Below, piece by piece: positions 37,733 through 47,016 of a stretch of 64,000 nt of DNA (its first letter is position 1; every line of letters starts with the position of its first letter). The notes below the pieces were generated by a model that searched no databases, was not told the DNA's origin, and worked only from the letters and a program-made list of their open reading frames with translations. This DNA comes from Candidatus Nitrosopelagicus sp. (GTDB lineage: Archaea > Thermoproteota > Nitrososphaeria > Nitrososphaerales > Nitrosopumilaceae), in assembly GCA_028345575.1 (NCBI GenBank), contig JAOMDR010000001.1, positions 1 through 64,000 on the forward strand. The letters are read 5' to 3'. The position numbers were made by a program, and so were the translations under genes.

Positions 37733-39208
37733 ATGGACGAAGAAATTTCCTCAGCTGTTAGTTATGCGTTGAATAAAGGATTTCAGATCCATCCAGATGC
37801 ACTTGAAATTCTACATAAAATTGATGTTAAGGAATTGGCTCAGATTATCAAAGATGTAGTTAAAGAAAAGACAAAACAAAAGCAGTTTTTGATAAATGAA
37901 GAAGATTTTGAGATTTATCTAGGAATAAAAGATGATGAGGAACATCAGGTGGAGTTTGAGATTTTATCAGACCCTACCAGCAAAATAACATCTGCAGAAG
38001 GTGTTGAGGGATATGGAAAATTATTTGCTAGTAGATTTAACAAATTAAAACAGATAATGTCTGATAGACCAGAATCAAAAAAGGTCAAAGATATCGAATC
38101 TGTCAAATCAATCACAAAAAATGATGATGAATTATTCGTATGGGGATTGGTTTCAGATAGAAAATCAGATAGAAACATCACAAAAATCACTCTAGAAGAC
38201 CCTACCAGTTCAATGGAGATAGTGGTTTTTGAAGGAGACTTGAAAGATACCGCAGATACTTTGCTCATGGACCAATTTGCAATGTTTAAGATAGTTCCTG
38301 CCAAAAATGGTGGATTTTTTGCAAAAGAGATTCTTCTTCCAGACATACCAGAACATACCACAAATCGCTCAAAAACTGAGACTTATGCTGTATTTTTATC
38401 AGATTTACATGTTGGAAGTAAGTTCTTCATGGAAGAAGAGCTATCAGAATTTATCAAATGGATTTCAAGTGCAGACCCAATAGCCAGAAAAATTAGATTC
38501 GTCGTTGTGGGAGGAGATTTAATTGATGGAGTTGGTGTTTTCCCAGGTCAAGAAAAGATACTAAATCAAACAACAACAGAAGGGCAATTACAAAAAACGT
38601 TTGAGGTTTTAGATAAGATACCAAAGCACATCAAGGTCTTTTTGATATCTGGAAATCATGATGCAGGAAGAAAGGCTCTTCCACAACCGGCAATCCCAAA
38701 GATGTACAATTCAGAATTATGGGATAGGGAAAATTTCTTCATGTTAGGAAATCCATCAATGGTTTCATTAAACGGAGTTAAGGTTTTGATGTATCATGGC
38801 CAATCAATAGATGATGTGGTCAGAACCACACCTGGAGTTAGTTATGACAAGCCGGCTGCTGTAATGAGACATTTTCTTAAAGCCAGACATATGAGCCCGA
38901 TTTACGGAAGTAGAACTCCAATCGCCCCAGAAACAGAAGATATGATGGTAATTGATGATATTCCAGACATCTTCCATTCGGGGCATGTTCATTTTGTGGG
39001 ACTTGATATGTACAAAGGGGTATTGATAGTCAATTCGGGTGCTTGGCAAAGACAGACAGATTTCCAGGAAAGTGTTGGAATTACACCTACCCCTGGAATG
39101 GCCATTATAGTAAATCTACAAACAATGAAGGTTTACCAAAAAGATTTTCGTGTTCAAGAATCAGACTTTATTGAACCAAAACATGCAGAGCCACAACAAC
39201 TCAGTTAG
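37733..39208 (+). CDS. polB: DNA polymerase D small subunit DP1
   Basis: AVFLSDLHVGSKFF, VVVGGDLIDGVGVFPGQE, ISGNHDAGRKALPQPAI, HSGHVHFVG calcineurin-type exonuclease motifs. Confidence 0.95.
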   Translation: MDEEISSAVSYALNKGFQIHPDALEILHKIDVKELAQIIKDVVKEKTKQKQFLINEEDFEIYLGIKDDEEHQVEFEILSDPTSKITSAEGVEGYGKLFASRFNKLKQIMSDRPESKKVKDIESVKSITKNDDELFVWGLVSDRKSDRNITKITLEDPTSSMEIVVFEGDLKDTADTLLMDQFAMFKIVPAKNGGFFAKEILLPDIPEHTTNRSKTETYAVFLSDLHVGSKFFMEEELSEFIKWISSADPIARKIRFVVVGGDLIDGVGVFPGQEKILNQTTTEGQLQKTFEVLDKIPKHIKVFLISGNHDAGRKALPQPAIPKMYNSELWDRENFFMLGNPSMVSLNGVKVLMYHGQSIDDVVRTTPGVSYDKPAAVMRHFLKARHMSPIYGSRTPIAPETEDMMVIDDIPDIFHSGHVHFVGLDMYKGVLIVNSGAWQRQTDFQESVGITPTPGMAIIVNLQTMKVYQKDFRVQESDFIEPKHAEPQQLS

Positions 39209-40560
39209 AGAATATCTTGTAGTAGCATCTCATCTTTGAAGGTAGTTTTTACCATATCTGGTGAGACTGTAATTCTGAATTTCTTTGTGTTTCCATGTGT
39301 TCCCTGGTGGACGATTCTACCGGCAATGATTCCTGACATTTCTATCTCACTTAACATTTGAGTGACTCTTCTTTGAGTGAGCTCTTTTTGGCGAATATCT
39401 TTACAGAGATTTTTGTATGTTGAATATACTTCTCCTGTGGATATCTCTGATGATTTCATAATTGCTAAAATTAGTAACTTTTCATGTAATGGGTAGGAGC
39501 GAAGTGCTACAACCTCTTTGTTTTCCTCAATCTTTTCTGCTGCCATTCTGATATGATCTTCAGAGACGGTTGGCATTTGGGTTCTTTCTGCTATCTCGGC
39601 TGCTACTCGAAGAAGGTCTAATGCACGTCTAGCATCTCCTGATTCTCTTCCAGCCATAGCAGAACAGAGGTTTAATGCTGCATCTGAGACTATGTTTTGT
39701 TCAAATGCCACCTCAATTCGAGCATCCAATATCTCTTTGATTTGTGGTAGATTGTAATTTGTGAATATGACTTCTTCCTCACTCAAACTGCTAATTACAC
39801 GTGGGTCTAGTCTTTCTTTGAAGGTGAGATCATTTGACACACCAATTAGTGTTAATGAGCCTGTGGTTAATCGCTCGTTTGCTCTGGTAATTTGATAAAG
39901 AACATCTTTGCCTGTTTTTTGGATTAATTCTGCCAAGTAATCAATCTCATCAATTACGAATACTGCGTTTGTTTCGTTCTTGTCTAAGACGTAGAGAATT
40001 CTGTTAAATACTTCGCTTATTGATAGGCCCGTACTTGGAAGCCACATCTTCTCATCGTTGGTTTTTTGACTTCCTAGGCCTAATTGTCTTCCAAAGGAGA
40101 CCAATAGTCCGTATAGGGTTGTCTCTTGTTTTGCGTTTGTATATGCTAGTTTAATTGGAAATGATCCCTCTTCAACCCTTTTTTGGATTTTTGAGAGTAC
40201 TTTCTTGATTACCAGAGTCTTGCCTGTTCCAGGCTTGCCATACACCAGTAAGTTTGATGGTCTTGATTCCATTAAAATTGGAAGTAAAGATTGAGTAATT
40301 TTTTCCTGCTCAGGGTCCCTGTGAAGTATCTGATTAGGCATGAATGTAAAGTGAAGTACGTCTCTATTTTTGATTAGAGTTTTGCCGTTTTGGGCTGCAT
40401 CTAAAAGACGGTCAATTGGATCGATTGTGGTTGTACTCATGTTGAGATCATATTGTATTTCAAAACAACAGTTCAACTGATCTTTTTGAAAAACTTCACA
40501 AGACTGATCGTTCTTGTTGACTCTTCTCAGATCGATAGGATCGCTCCCAGACACCTTCAT
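39205..40560 (-). CDS. cdc6: Orc1/Cdc6 origin-recognition protein (probable start MSTTTIDPIDRLLD at 40440)
   Basis: LLVYGKPGTGKTLVIKKVL Walker A, AVFVIDEIDYL Walker B, GRESGDARRALDLLRVAAEIAE, C-terminal wHTH. Confidence 0.95.
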   Translation of the reverse strand: MKVSGSDPIDLRRVNKNDQSCEVFQKDQLNCCFEIQYDLNMSTTTIDPIDRLLDAAQNGKTLIKNRDVLHFTFMPNQILHRDPEQEKITQSLLPILMESRPSNLLVYGKPGTGKTLVIKKVLSKIQKRVEEGSFPIKLAYTNAKQETTLYGLLVSFGRQLGLGSQKTNDEKMWLPSTGLSISEVFNRILYVLDKNETNAVFVIDEIDYLAELIQKTGKDVLYQITRANERLTTGSLTLIGVSNDLTFKERLDPRVISSLSEEEVIFTNYNLPQIKEILDARIEVAFEQNIVSDAALNLCSAMAGRESGDARRALDLLRVAAEIAERTQMPTVSEDHIRMAAEKIEENKEVVALRSYPLHEKLLILAIMKSSEISTGEVYSTYKNLCKDIRQKELTQRRVTQMLSEIEMSGIIAGRIVHQGTHGNTKKFRITVSPDMVKTTFKDEMLLQDIL

Positions 40561-40792
40561 TTCTAATGATAAACTAGATTGTATAATAAAATAAAATAAA
40601 ATTAGTATGAATATGAATTCTCATTTTAAAAAAATTAGAAAAGGTAACACTGGAAAGATAGGTGTGTGGGATATCAAAAAATAAAAATAAAAAATGAAAT
40701 TTGTGAGGGAATTTTACGAAAAATCTAAAATGCTTGGGGATAGTTAACAACTGTTAAGGACGTGTTAAGAAAAGTGAAAAGAAGCCCATTTT

Positions 40793-40820
40793 ACCCCTTA
40801 ATTTCCAGTCTAGGCGTGAA
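40793..40820 (+). repeat. ORB-like repeat copy 1 (ACCCCTTAATTTCCAGTCTAGGCGTGAA)
   Basis: Identical to 40854-40881; contains ACCCCTT and TTCCAG elements resembling archaeal origin recognition boxes. Confidence 0.85.
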
Positions 40821-40853
40821 GATGGCTGTTAACATTGTTAATATGATAAAATC

Positions 40854-40881
40854 ACCCCTTAATTTCCAGTCTAGGCGTGAA
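40854..40881 (+). repeat. ORB-like repeat copy 2
   Basis: Perfect 28-nt direct repeat, 61 bp start-to-start from copy 1. Confidence 0.85.
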
Positions 40882-40913
40882 ATATCCCCAAATTTGGAGG
40901 GTATAGGAGATGG

Positions 40914-40930
40914 TTTTGTTAATAACAAAA
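40914..40930. repeat. Inverted repeat TTTTGTTA-A-TAACAAAA within the origin region
   Basis: Perfect 8-bp arms with 1-nt centre. Confidence 0.85.
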
Positions 40931-41033
40931 AAACACTCAGGCGTGGGCTAGGCAGTCAATGTTAACAAACCTGTTAGTTAACAAATCTCAGAAGATCAGT
41001 TGATGAGTTAAGGTTGGATCCTTATTGATCTGA

Positions 41034-41435
41034 ATGGCAGGAAAAAGAATTAGAATAGATCTAGAGGACAAGGATGGGGCCAAATACAAGTTCAACTTGG
41101 AGGGTAACATCAATCGTGATAAAGTCCTCAAAATTTTCGATTTACTAGACTTGATGAATATTGAAGAAACCGCAGACAACCCTGGGGTAGAGTCAGTTGG
41201 AGGTAAGATATGGCATATAGTAGACAAATACTACCCAACCGGTAAATTCACATCTTCAGACATACTAGAGAAATATGAGGATGAATACAACCAACCAATC
41301 AAACTTAGCGTAATTTCGACATATTTGGCCAGATTTACCTCTAAAAACAAGGTTGAAAGAGCCAAAAAAGGCAGAGAATGGGCTTATCACACTCTAAAAC
41401 TCACAAATACCGCCCCAAAACTTTCAGAAAACTAA
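41034..41435 (+). CDS. Origin-adjacent wHTH-like protein
   Basis: GKIWHIVDKYYPTGKFTSSDILEKYEDEYNQPIKLSVISTYLARFTSKNKVERAKKGREWAYHTLKL resembles wHTH. Confidence 0.7.
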   Translation: MAGKRIRIDLEDKDGAKYKFNLEGNINRDKVLKIFDLLDLMNIEETADNPGVESVGGKIWHIVDKYYPTGKFTSSDILEKYEDEYNQPIKLSVISTYLARFTSKNKVERAKKGREWAYHTLKLTNTAPKLSEN

Positions 41436-41590
41436 GAAATACGCACTTTTCGGACCACTAAATGGTCTCCTTCCAGGCCTATTTTGAGGTAATCACCCTT
41501 CTGCATCTCTAAATATCGTCTAAATTGCTTAGGTATGGAGATGGTTCCACCTGATGTTATCTTTACTAATTCTTCAGGAACCTCACTCAT
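41432..41590 (-). CDS. 52-aa AbrB/SpoVT (swapped-hairpin) DNA-binding protein, missed by the ORF track
   Basis: Direct translation MSEVPEELVKITSGGTISIPKQFRRYLEMQKGDYLKIGLEGDHLVVRKVRIS*. Confidence 0.82.
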   Translation of the reverse strand: MSEVPEELVKITSGGTISIPKQFRRYLEMQKGDYLKIGLEGDHLVVRKVRIS

Positions 41591-43638: not shown

Positions 43639-46600
43639 ATGTCTACTACCGCAAATTATCTTAAAGAAATCAAGGTTCCTCAAAATTACTCTGATTACTA
43701 TGAAGAACTATCACAACAGGTCTACAAGGAGTTTGAGAGGGCAGCAGACGCAAAATCAACGCTTTTAGACTCTTCTGGAATAATAGAGCCGAAAATCGCA
43801 TTTGATCTGGCGGAACGAGTAGCTAAAATGCATGATATTGACATTTCTACACCACTTCGTGAGTTATTAGATAAAACCGGAAAAGAAAACGCTGCTTTGA
43901 TAATGTCAAAGGAGATAGCATTAGGAAAGTATCAATCTCCAAATGCAAGTTTAGAGGATAAATTAGATCATGCAGTTAGAGTTGGGTTAGCTATTGTAAC
44001 AGAAGGTGTGACAATTGCTCCCTTACAAGGAATTAGTGAAATTAAAATTAAAAATAACAAAGATGGTTCTCAGTATCTTTCTGTATCTATTGCGGGACCA
44101 ATGAGGTCTGCAGGAGGAACTGAATCTGCTGTTACCATGTTAATTGCTGATCACGTGAGACGTGCAGTTGGACTCGAAAAATATCAAGCAGATTGTTTTG
44201 ATGATGAGACTGGAAGATTTGTAGAAGAGTTGCGAATCTATGAAAGTGAAGCAAAACAAAGTTTTCAATTTCACGTATCTGATGATGACATCAAAACTGT
44301 GATTTCTAATTTACCTGTTGAACTTGAAGGAGAAGGAACAGACCCCGATGAAGTAGTCAATCATCGTAACATGACTCGAATTAAAACAGACAGAGTAAGA
44401 GGCGGTGCACTACGTGTACTAAATGATGGATTAATTGGAAGATCAAAAAAACTCCTAAAACGAATTGAGAAGTACAACTTGGAAGGTTGGGAGTGGCTAA
44501 ACGATGTTCAAGGTGCTGTTCAAAAAGGTGAATCTGGTGATGATGCATCTGAAAAACGTATGAGAGAAGTCATTACTGGGCGTTCCGTACTATCAATGCC
44601 AAACAAGATTGGAGGTTTTCGACTCAGATATGGACGTGCATGCAACACAGGTTTTGCTAGCGTTGGACTACATCCAGTGATTGCTGAAATCTTAGATCAT
44701 ACTATTGCTGTAGGAACACAAATCAAACTTGACAAACCAAGTAAAGGCGCAACTGTAGCCTTTGTTGACTCACTTGAGACGCCTATTGTCAGACTAAAAG
44801 GAGGCGATGTAGTCAAAATTCAAGATACAGAACACGGAATTCAGATTAAAAATGATATTGAAAAGATTCTGCATCTAGGTGATATTCTAATAACATTTGG
44901 TGACTTTTTGGAAAATAATGCAGAATTAATCCCAACTCCAATGGTGGAAGAGGTTTGGGCTGAATATCTTAAAGCAAAACTTTCCAAACATGACGAAAGA
45001 CTCGAATTTCTAACAAAGACTCCTACATTTGTTGATGCCATATTACTTTCAAAAGAACTGAAAATTCCATTACACCCAAAATTTCTTTACTACTGGGATT
45101 TTATCACAACAAAAGAGCTTGAGAAAATCTCAAACCCAATCTTAAAATCAGAAAATGAAATTCATTATGAAATTTCAACAAAACAAATTCTTGAAAATTT
45201 AGGAATCCCACATAAGGTTACAGATGATAAAATCATTATTTCTGGAATAGATGTTCAAATCTTAAACCACCTTATTTTTGGTACTACCTTAAATTTTGAT
45301 ACCACCAAATCTGTTTTAGAACTGTTAACAGAAACCACTGGAATTGAAATAAAGAATAAATTTTCAAAGTCAATTGGTGTTAGAATTGGAAGACCTGAAA
45401 AGGCTGCACCACGTCTAATGAAACCGCCAGTTCATGTACTATTTCCTGTTGCAGAAAAAGGTGGCATTACTAGAGATATTTTGAAAGCCGCTGTTGCATC
45501 AGAATCATTTTTTACGAATCTGAATAATCGTCGTTGCACAAATTGTAATATTCCATCAATTGGAATTGTTTGTTCAAAATGTGGTAATAAAACTACAAAA
45601 TTTTACATCTGCAGAATTTGTAAAGATGAATTAGAAACACCACATTGTGAGAAATGTAAAAGAGATGCAAATGGATTTTCTTACAAACAGTTCCCACTAA
45701 AACAGAATTTGATGGCAGCACAAGAAAAACTTGGAATACGTGCAAAAGCACCATTCAAAGGCGTTGATAAATTAATCAATCAGGAAAAAATCCCAGAACC
45801 TCTAGAAAAAGGGCTAATTAGACAAAAGTTTGGTTTATCTACCTTCAAAGATGGTACTGTTAGATTTGATGCTACAAACTCACCTTTGACACACTTCAAA
45901 CTCTCCTGGATAGGAACAACAGTCGAGCAAATCACAAAACTTGGATATGAAAATGATATTGATGGAAATCCAATCACAAATGATGAGCAATTAATTGAAT
46001 TAAAGATGCAAGATGTGATCATTCCTCTTGAAAGTGCCGAATATCTGGTAAATGTTTCAAAGTATATTGATTTTGAACTGCAGAAATTTTTTGGGAAACA
46101 ACCATTTTACAATCTAAAAGATACACAGGATTTGTTAGGTCATTTAGTTATTGGCCTTGCACCACATACCTCTGTAGGAATTACCGGACGACTAATTGGT
46201 TATACGAAAACCCACGTATGTTTTGCTAGTCCAATTTGGCATTCTGCAAAAAGAAGAGACGCAGATGGTGATGCAGATTCTGTCATGTTATTACTAGATG
46301 CATTATTGAACTTCTCAAGACAGTTCTTGTCTGATAAGATTGGAGGATTAATGGATGCGCCATTACTAATTCAACCAATAGTTTTACCACATGAGGCACA
46401 AACACAAGCACATAACTTTGAGGTAGCAAAAGAATTCCCACTCGAATTTTATGAATCATCATTAAATAATGAAAAATCAGGTGATATCAAAAATATTGAA
46501 ACTTTAGCTATGCGAAAAGATACTGGTGATGAAAATATTTTCTATGATCATTTCTTCACTCACAACACAACAACACTAACTACATCAAAATCACGAAGCG

Positions 46601-47016
46601 CATATTCCACACTTGAATCAATGGTTGACAAGCTTGACTTGCAAATTAGAAATGCAGACATTATCAATGCAGTTGAGACAAGAGATATTGTTTCATATCT
46701 AATACAAACACATCTTATTCCTGATATTATGGGAAACATTCGTGCATATGCAAAACAAAAATTCCGTTGTACTGCATGTGGTGCAAAGTATAGACGAATG
46801 CCGTTACTTCAAAAATGTACTTGTGGTCACAAGTTATTACAAACAATTACTCGGCCATCAATTGAAAAATATCTCCCATTGGCAAAGAAACTAGTCACAA
46901 AATATGACGTGGATCCATATCTGAAAGGAAGAATCATGACTTTGTCTGATGAAATTGAACTACTCTTTGGAAAAGGTGATGGTTCACAACAACTACTAAC
47001 TGATTTTGTAAATTAA
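43639..47016 (+). CDS. polC: DNA polymerase D large subunit DP2 (no intein visible)
   Basis: SIAGPMRSAGGTESAVTMLIADHVRR, GRACNTGFASVGLHP, RIGRPEKAAPRLMKPPVHVLFP, KRRDADGDADSVMLLLDALLNFS, zinc clusters. Confidence 0.97.
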   Translation: MSTTANYLKEIKVPQNYSDYYEELSQQVYKEFERAADAKSTLLDSSGIIEPKIAFDLAERVAKMHDIDISTPLRELLDKTGKENAALIMSKEIALGKYQSPNASLEDKLDHAVRVGLAIVTEGVTIAPLQGISEIKIKNNKDGSQYLSVSIAGPMRSAGGTESAVTMLIADHVRRAVGLEKYQADCFDDETGRFVEELRIYESEAKQSFQFHVSDDDIKTVISNLPVELEGEGTDPDEVVNHRNMTRIKTDRVRGGALRVLNDGLIGRSKKLLKRIEKYNLEGWEWLNDVQGAVQKGESGDDASEKRMREVITGRSVLSMPNKIGGFRLRYGRACNTGFASVGLHPVIAEILDHTIAVGTQIKLDKPSKGATVAFVDSLETPIVRLKGGDVVKIQDTEHGIQIKNDIEKILHLGDILITFGDFLENNAELIPTPMVEEVWAEYLKAKLSKHDERLEFLTKTPTFVDAILLSKELKIPLHPKFLYYWDFITTKELEKISNPILKSENEIHYEISTKQILENLGIPHKVTDDKIIISGIDVQILNHLIFGTTLNFDTTKSVLELLTETTGIEIKNKFSKSIGVRIGRPEKAAPRLMKPPVHVLFPVAEKGGITRDILKAAVASESFFTNLNNRRCTNCNIPSIGIVCSKCGNKTTKFYICRICKDELETPHCEKCKRDANGFSYKQFPLKQNLMAAQEKLGIRAKAPFKGVDKLINQEKIPEPLEKGLIRQKFGLSTFKDGTVRFDATNSPLTHFKLSWIGTTVEQITKLGYENDIDGNPITNDEQLIELKMQDVIIPLESAEYLVNVSKYIDFELQKFFGKQPFYNLKDTQDLLGHLVIGLAPHTSVGITGRLIGYTKTHVCFASPIWHSAKRRDADGDADSVMLLLDALLNFSRQFLSDKIGGLMDAPLLIQPIVLPHEAQTQAHNFEVAKEFPLEFYESSLNNEKSGDIKNIETLAMRKDTGDENIFYDHFFTHNTTTLTTSKSRSAYSTLESMVDKLDLQIRNADIINAVETRDIVSYLIQTHLIPDIMGNIRAYAKQKFRCTACGAKYRRMPLLQKCTCGHKLLQTITRPSIEKYLPLAKKLVTKYDVDPYLKGRIMTLSDEIELLFGKGDGSQQLLTDFVN

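Follow-up and report, generated by a model that had tools for sequence, protein, structure and literature searches.

Archaeal origins of the Orc1/Cdc6 type are exemplified by Sulfolobus oriC1, Pyrococcus oriC and Haloarcula oriC1, in which an initiator gene lies adjacent to several ORBs carrying a G-string, arranged in opposed orientation around an AT-rich spacer. The published common ORB motif reads TCCA[CG]T[TG]GAAA[TC][GA]AAGGGGT (PMC4164010), and the opposed arrangement is a known one that predicts MCM loading between the elements (PMC6742236; PMC12141716). Sulfolobus additionally possesses a non-ORB motif, ucm (ATTATACAAAC as read from the oligonucleotide), which occurs as a single site and is bound by UBP via beta-hairpins; UBP occurs only in Sulfolobales and Desulfurococcales, and the 2025 study of this protein asks whether more divergent archaea possess analogous origin proteins (PMC12141716).

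Ammonia-oxidising archaea are among the ocean's most abundant cells, and the sequence anatomy of their origins is little described in the texts covered here. For N. maritimus, the passages available in later papers report a single replication origin (Pelve 2013, cited in PMC4010727; PMC5333045), an origin was predicted by Ori-Finder 2 (PMC4164010), and ORB repeats beside cdc are mentioned (PMC5797428). Here, we describe a locus from a Nitrosopelagicus-like thaumarchaeon, located within a window of 64,000 nt. With the N. maritimus oriC (Pelve 2013; Ori-Finder 2/DoriC) it shares the position beside cdc6 and the gene of a small protein, P0002, as well as the ORB pair and a single origin. It also shares with Sulfolobus oriC1, Pyrococcus oriC and Haloarcula oriC1 the features named above. 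The origin is thus not new in kind and is well supported as a member of the Orc1/Cdc6-ORB group, whereas a half-replaced ORB and, above all, the pairing of a repeated TGTKAA box with P0002 set it apart as a variant.

The interval beside cdc6

The interval between cdc6 and the P0002 gene is very probably the chromosomal replication origin of this organism and of the Orc1/Cdc6-ORB kind, as already proposed by the first-pass annotation. Its boundary required one correction: the long cdc6 reading frame listed by the program (start at 40560) was rejected as an over-extension, and since the conserved start lies at 40440, the true intergenic interval covers 593 bp (Table 1). Genes for replication proteins (cdc6, DP1 and DP2) are clustered around it. 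The best solved relatives of the initiator P0001 are Sulfolobus Cdc6-1 (2qby_A) and an Aeropyrum protein (2v1u), and cdc6 was detected in 183/201 family genomes.

Table 1. Features in and around the interval, given as positions in the 64,000-nt window.
Feature	Position	Strand	Basis or remark
DNA polymerase D small subunit (DP1)	37733-39208	+	NF003118 above cut-off
cdc6/orc1, Orc1-1 type initiator (P0001, 411 aa)	39205-40440	-	TIGR02928, Cdc6_C/Cdc6_lid
Very probable oriC, whole interval from cdc6 to the winged-helix gene (593 bp)	40441-41033	.	genus/family footprint, skew extremum
ORB-A, weaker ORB-like element, reverse complement TTAGAAATGAAGGTGTCTGGG	40546-40566	-	near-invariant in genus
ORB-B, inverted ORB-like element ACACTGGAAAGATAGGTGTGTGGG	40647-40670	+	conserved in genus
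AT-rich, poorly conserved spacer with opposed ORBs on either side	40671-40741	.	AT ~0.7
Three TGTTAA boxes, AGTTAACAACTGTTAAGGACGTGTTAAG	40742-40769	.	near-invariant, 33 sequences, 19 genera
ORB-C, first 28-mer copy	40793-40820	-	repeat pair, conserved
Palindromic double box TTAACATTGTTAA in the ORB-C/ORB-D gap	40829-40841	.	family-conserved
ORB-D, second 28-mer copy	40854-40881	-	repeat pair, conserved
Box TTGTTAATAACAA	40916-40928	.	TTGTTAA conserved at position
ORB extension motif, twice, without ORB core	about 40937-40956 (AGGCGTGGGCTAGGCA = 40939-40954)	.	consensus CTAGGCGTGGnCTAGGCA
Two boxes, TGTTAACAAACC and AGTTAACAAAT	40960-40986	.	among the interval's most conserved positions
P0002, origin-linked predicted winged-helix protein (133 aa)	41034-41435	+	candidate TGTKAA box reader
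DNA polymerase D large subunit (DP2)	43639-47016	+	NF003103 above cut-off

The most conspicuous element is the 28-mer ACCCCTTAATTTCCAGTCTAGGCGTGAA, which had been noticed as a perfect pair and is indeed found in two identical copies on one strand with a start-to-start distance of 61 bp. No third copy was found in the window at up to three mismatches, none occurred outside the pair in the 1.10-Mb draft genome, and 100 dinucleotide shuffles produced 0 occurrences. Besides this pair (ORB-C and ORB-D), the interval harbours two elements that had escaped attention, ORB-A and the inverted ORB-B, giving four ORBs in the order A (reverse), B (forward), AT-rich spacer, C (reverse) and D (reverse). ORB-A and ORB-B are weaker matches than ORB-C and ORB-D. 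The AT-rich tract described earlier as preceding the repeats was recovered with an AT fraction of 0.72-0.85 across about 40561-40710; within the genus, both the sequence and the length of the spacer between ORB-B and ORB-C drift, and we infer that this spacer is a candidate unwinding element.

Base skew, suggested before as a check, was analysed in a closed relative of the same genus (G019; 1,232,128 bp, the size of Ca. N. brevis CN25; assembled from stretches) using circular detrended cumulative curves. The GC skew of this genome peaks at 1,227,924 and reaches its minimum half a genome away at 613,015, with that of the AT skew at 613,032. Its origin lies at about 1,231,855-1,232,128 and continues across the contig start, which places the skew peak within ~4 kb, and the observed GC skew range was reached by 0/5000 block shuffles. 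Genome-wide, the only matches to the ORB core at up to three mismatches are its two ORBs. On the candidate's own 128-kb contig, the slope of the GC skew changes from +16.9/kb left of 40.9 kb to -18.0/kb right of it, and the maximum is broad, spanning 40-50 kb. Three hallmarks of an Orc1/Cdc6 origin were found here, namely the adjacent initiator gene, several ORBs of opposed polarity with an AT-rich spacer between them (ORB-B on the plus strand, ORB-C and ORB-D on the minus strand) and a base-skew extremum at the site, the latter in both G019 and the own contig. As the candidate's own genome is an 86%-complete draft, it may hold a second origin.

In both the whole window and G019, the origin sits at the maximum and not at the minimum of the cumulative GC skew; the leading strand is therefore rich in C, the reverse of what most bacteria show.

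By analogy with the described systems, Orc1/Cdc6 from the adjacent gene would bind the four ORBs as oriented monomers. ORB-B and ORB-C, opposed over the AT-rich spacer, would form the site of MCM loading and DNA opening, and ORB-D would repeat ORB-C about six helical turns away.

Form and conservation of the ORBs

Read as its reverse complement, the 28-mer is CTGGAAATTAAGGGGT, and the corresponding family consensus is TTCACGCCTRGAGTGGAAATAAAGGGGT. Comparison with the published common ORB (PMC4164010) revealed a canonical right half, TGGAAAnnAAGGGGT with its G-string, and a left half that departs from the TCCA of the dyad, with TRGA in Nitrosopumilaceae and TTCCA in a sister family of the same order (f3). 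In f3, the pair is fully canonical (TTCCAATGGAAATGAAGGGGT in locus L107, spacing 60-62 bp); the family-specific change is therefore the replacement of the left half-site, with GCCTRGA taking the place of TTCCA. Judged by its sequence, the Nitrosopumilaceae repeat is a lineage-specific ORB. The first-pass annotation was right in calling it such a variant with a CTAGGCGTGA extension, as sister families carry canonical TTCCARTGGAAATRAAGGGGT ORBs in an equal paired arrangement. Compared to Sulfolobus oriC1, Pyrococcus oriC and Haloarcula oriC1, the present origin thus differs in having GCCTRGA for TTCCA plus a CGTGAA extension, and also in its four elements and its array of TGTTAA boxes.

The search for these repeats beside cdc6 in relatives, proposed earlier, returned the same repeats and further supports the assignment as oriC. 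Nearly all loci sampled, from 21 genera of the family, contain the pair upstream of cdc6 in fixed orientation and 61-62 bp apart. A strict pattern for the pair gave exactly one match each in 67/121 family genomes (16/22 genera), among them a genome of 1,645,259 bp, the size of N. maritimus SCM1, and the reversed control pattern gave 0 matches; because the pattern is strict, genomes that it misses do not represent absences. An element in the same orientation as ORB-A is present in most other genera, and a counterpart of ORB-B (~RGAGTGGAAATANAGGTGTGTGGG) in nearly all of them.

In one subclade of the genus (L033, L035-L037 and L039), ORB-C is degenerate and an additional ORB lies 38 bp past ORB-D. 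The Cdc6 proteins of the same five loci form a long branch (0.53) next to the remaining members of the genus, and it looks like initiator and replicator are changing together in this subclade. Loci of g1 with 61-62% Cdc6 were considered as replacements and dismissed, since the tree places them, on a long branch, by other g1 sequences.

The ORB extension motif also occurs without an ORB core. The partial copy AGGCGTG noted previously is present at 40939 and belongs to a motif, CYAGGCRTG, that is found twice at about 40937-40956, is conserved in the family and may be a separate binding site.

The TGTKAA box array

TGTTAA or its complement TTAACA occurs 10 times in the 593-bp interval versus 0.78 expected from the contig, making this the densest window of the contig (next 5) and TGTTAA the most enriched 6-mer of the interval relative to the rest of the 64-kb window. 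In G019, the origin is likewise the sole top window for TGTTAA genome-wide (11; next 5). This array was absent from the first-pass annotation, which had picked up one member as TTTTGTTAATAACAAAA at 40914-40930; that element is present, and its core TTGTTA-A-TAACAA is conserved. A second palindrome reported there, CCAAATTTGG, was correctly placed at 40888-40897 and is probably incidental, as it is not conserved even inside the genus; we therefore rejected it as a functional element.

In 33 sequences from 19 genera, the position of the boxes relative to the ORBs is fixed, and boxes and ORBs are equally invariant. Between ORB-C and ORB-D, the double box reads TTAACANTGTKAA in 62 of the 67 family genomes with the strict pair pattern, 35 of which show the perfect palindrome TTAACANTGTTAA; in a locus of another family (L282), TTCACAATGTGAA is located exactly between the two ORBs. 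Across the class, TGTKAA is enriched in all families tested (f2-f9), weakly so in f8. A first reading that f4 and f9 lack boxes was overturned, as the boxes there read TGTGAA, which is the top enriched 6-mer of their origins (15 vs 1.1 expected). These results show that a TGTKAA(C) array interleaved with the ORBs is a conserved, origin-specific second element.

A literature search for TGTTAAC at archaeal origins returned nothing relevant, and neither the half-replaced ORB nor the box/P0002 pair, nor, for the published N. maritimus oriC, this box class or a role of P0002, was found described in the sources covered, which do not include the primary N. maritimus mapping paper. The second motif is apparently undescribed, and its pairing with P0002 appears to be new.

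P0002 and its relation to the boxes

P0002 is present in 138/151 genomes of the class, usually beside cdc6, and was detected by profile in 128/201 genomes of the phylum. Outside the class, 18/40 examined P0002 genomes (11 families) carry it divergent from cdc6 at a distance of about 590-860 bp. The joint absence of P0002 and the Orc1-1 cdc6 from 11/12 class genomes was not taken to indicate co-loss, since these genes neighbour each other and the genomes are mostly incomplete. The AlphaFold model (mean pLDDT 77) combines a beta-beta-alpha part with a winged helix, and invariant residues fall in the recognition helix (STYLxR) and the wing (R, W, Y). Foldseek ranked winged-helix repressors highest, with no match below E 0.001, and the P0002 profile matched none of the PDB chains at E 0.1. 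Against MecI/BlaI (PF03965), the protein scores 19.7 bits, below the gathering cut-off of 22.6, and 13/26 relatives match this family at E <0.01. P0002 shares a predicted fold and a weak profile match with MecI/BlaI and ArsR repressors, from which it differs by staying below the Pfam cut-off, by Foldseek values above 0.001 and by its place beside an origin.

Whether the boxes go with P0002 was analysed by ranking all 6-mers in the 700 bp upstream of Orc1-1-type cdc6 genes. In 16 P0002-adjacent loci outside the class, where this region is also P0002's own upstream region, TGTGAA/TTCACA was the top 6-mer and outranked the ORB 6-mers (67 vs 7.3 expected; 16/16 loci). It ranked second in 12 loci with P0002 elsewhere (22 vs 4.65 expected; 8/12 loci). 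In 21 Orc1-1-type loci from genomes without detectable P0002, TGTKAA was found 9 times versus 15 expected and TGTGAA was unenriched; Cdc6 alone thus does not require the boxes. The GC content differs between the compared sets, and because families share ancestry, the linkage may reflect few independent events.

Since both promoters lie in the interval and some boxes fall within ~75 bp of the P0002 start, the region could in principle be a mere divergent promoter, with the repeats as operators for autoregulation of cdc6 and its neighbour and the origin elsewhere. The skew extremum at the interval, the canonical ORB pairs of sister families and the published N. maritimus origin with ORB repeats beside cdc make this highly improbable. 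A narrower version, in which the TGTKAA boxes alone are a self-regulatory P0002 operator without a role in replication, draws on the proximity of boxes to the P0002 start and on the resemblance of its fold to MecI/BlaI and ArsR repressors. We consider it unlikely, as the boxes are interleaved with the ORBs at fixed phase and are enriched upstream of cdc6 in several genomes with P0002 elsewhere (L352, L354, L357, L372). Moreover, in f2 P0002 lies ~2.9 kb from cdc6 with genes between; the region upstream of P0002 is free of boxes there, whereas those beside cdc6 are retained, an arrangement that favours assigning them to the origin.

The boxes might instead be bound by another protein, such as a nucleoid protein or Cdc6 itself, with P0002 as a bystander held by synteny. 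Distribution data cannot name the binder, families are non-independent samples, and in f15, f36 and f38 P0002 is present without clear box enrichment; the P0002-less loci without boxes and a linkage that spans several classes speak against this explanation, which we likewise regard as rather improbable. Our tentative reading, drawn from their co-occurrence, is that P0002 itself binds the boxes. The palindromic double site and the repressor-like fold suggest that it would do so as a dimer, and it could modulate opening, MCM placement or the timing of initiation, and perhaps its own and cdc6 transcription.

Extended with equal caution, the origins of Nitrososphaeria and several related Thermoproteota could be two-component, with ORBs and Orc1/Cdc6 on one side and a TGTKAAC array and an ancient origin-linked P0002 family on the other. 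If true, such a pairing would represent a second origin-binding system of archaea that is separate from both ucm/UBP and WhiP. As with ucm/UBP, a small and lineage-specific DNA-binding protein apparently recognises an origin motif other than the ORB, and the boxes are partly placed within the ORB-flanked spacer. In contrast to the single ucm site, TGTKAA is multi-copy and also found between and outside the ORBs, and P0002 is a predicted winged helix where UBP employs beta-hairpins. Boxes and P0002 together provide a concrete candidate with which to approach the question of analogous origin proteins.

In f15 (L404-L407) and f38 (L415-L418), cdc6 lies tens of kb from P0002 or on another contig. 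AGGGGT ORB-like elements are found upstream of P0002 at nearly fixed distances, about -222 in both families and also -307 and -412 in f38; here, it may be P0002 and not cdc6 that the origin accompanies.

Both edges of the origin (40446-40539 and 40994-41030) are rich in GATC, with 8 sites in 593 bp versus 1.5 expected, and include the inverted pair TCAACTGATCTT (40473) and AAGATCAGTTGA (40992), which is conserved in the genus. A Dam-type signal was dropped as an explanation, as G019 has windows with 9-10 GATC elsewhere. Directly after P0002, a small open reading frame on the minus strand (MSEVPEELVKITSGGTISIPKQFRRYLEMQKGDYLKIGLEGDHLVVRKVRIS, 41436-41590) resembles AbrB/MazE by eye.
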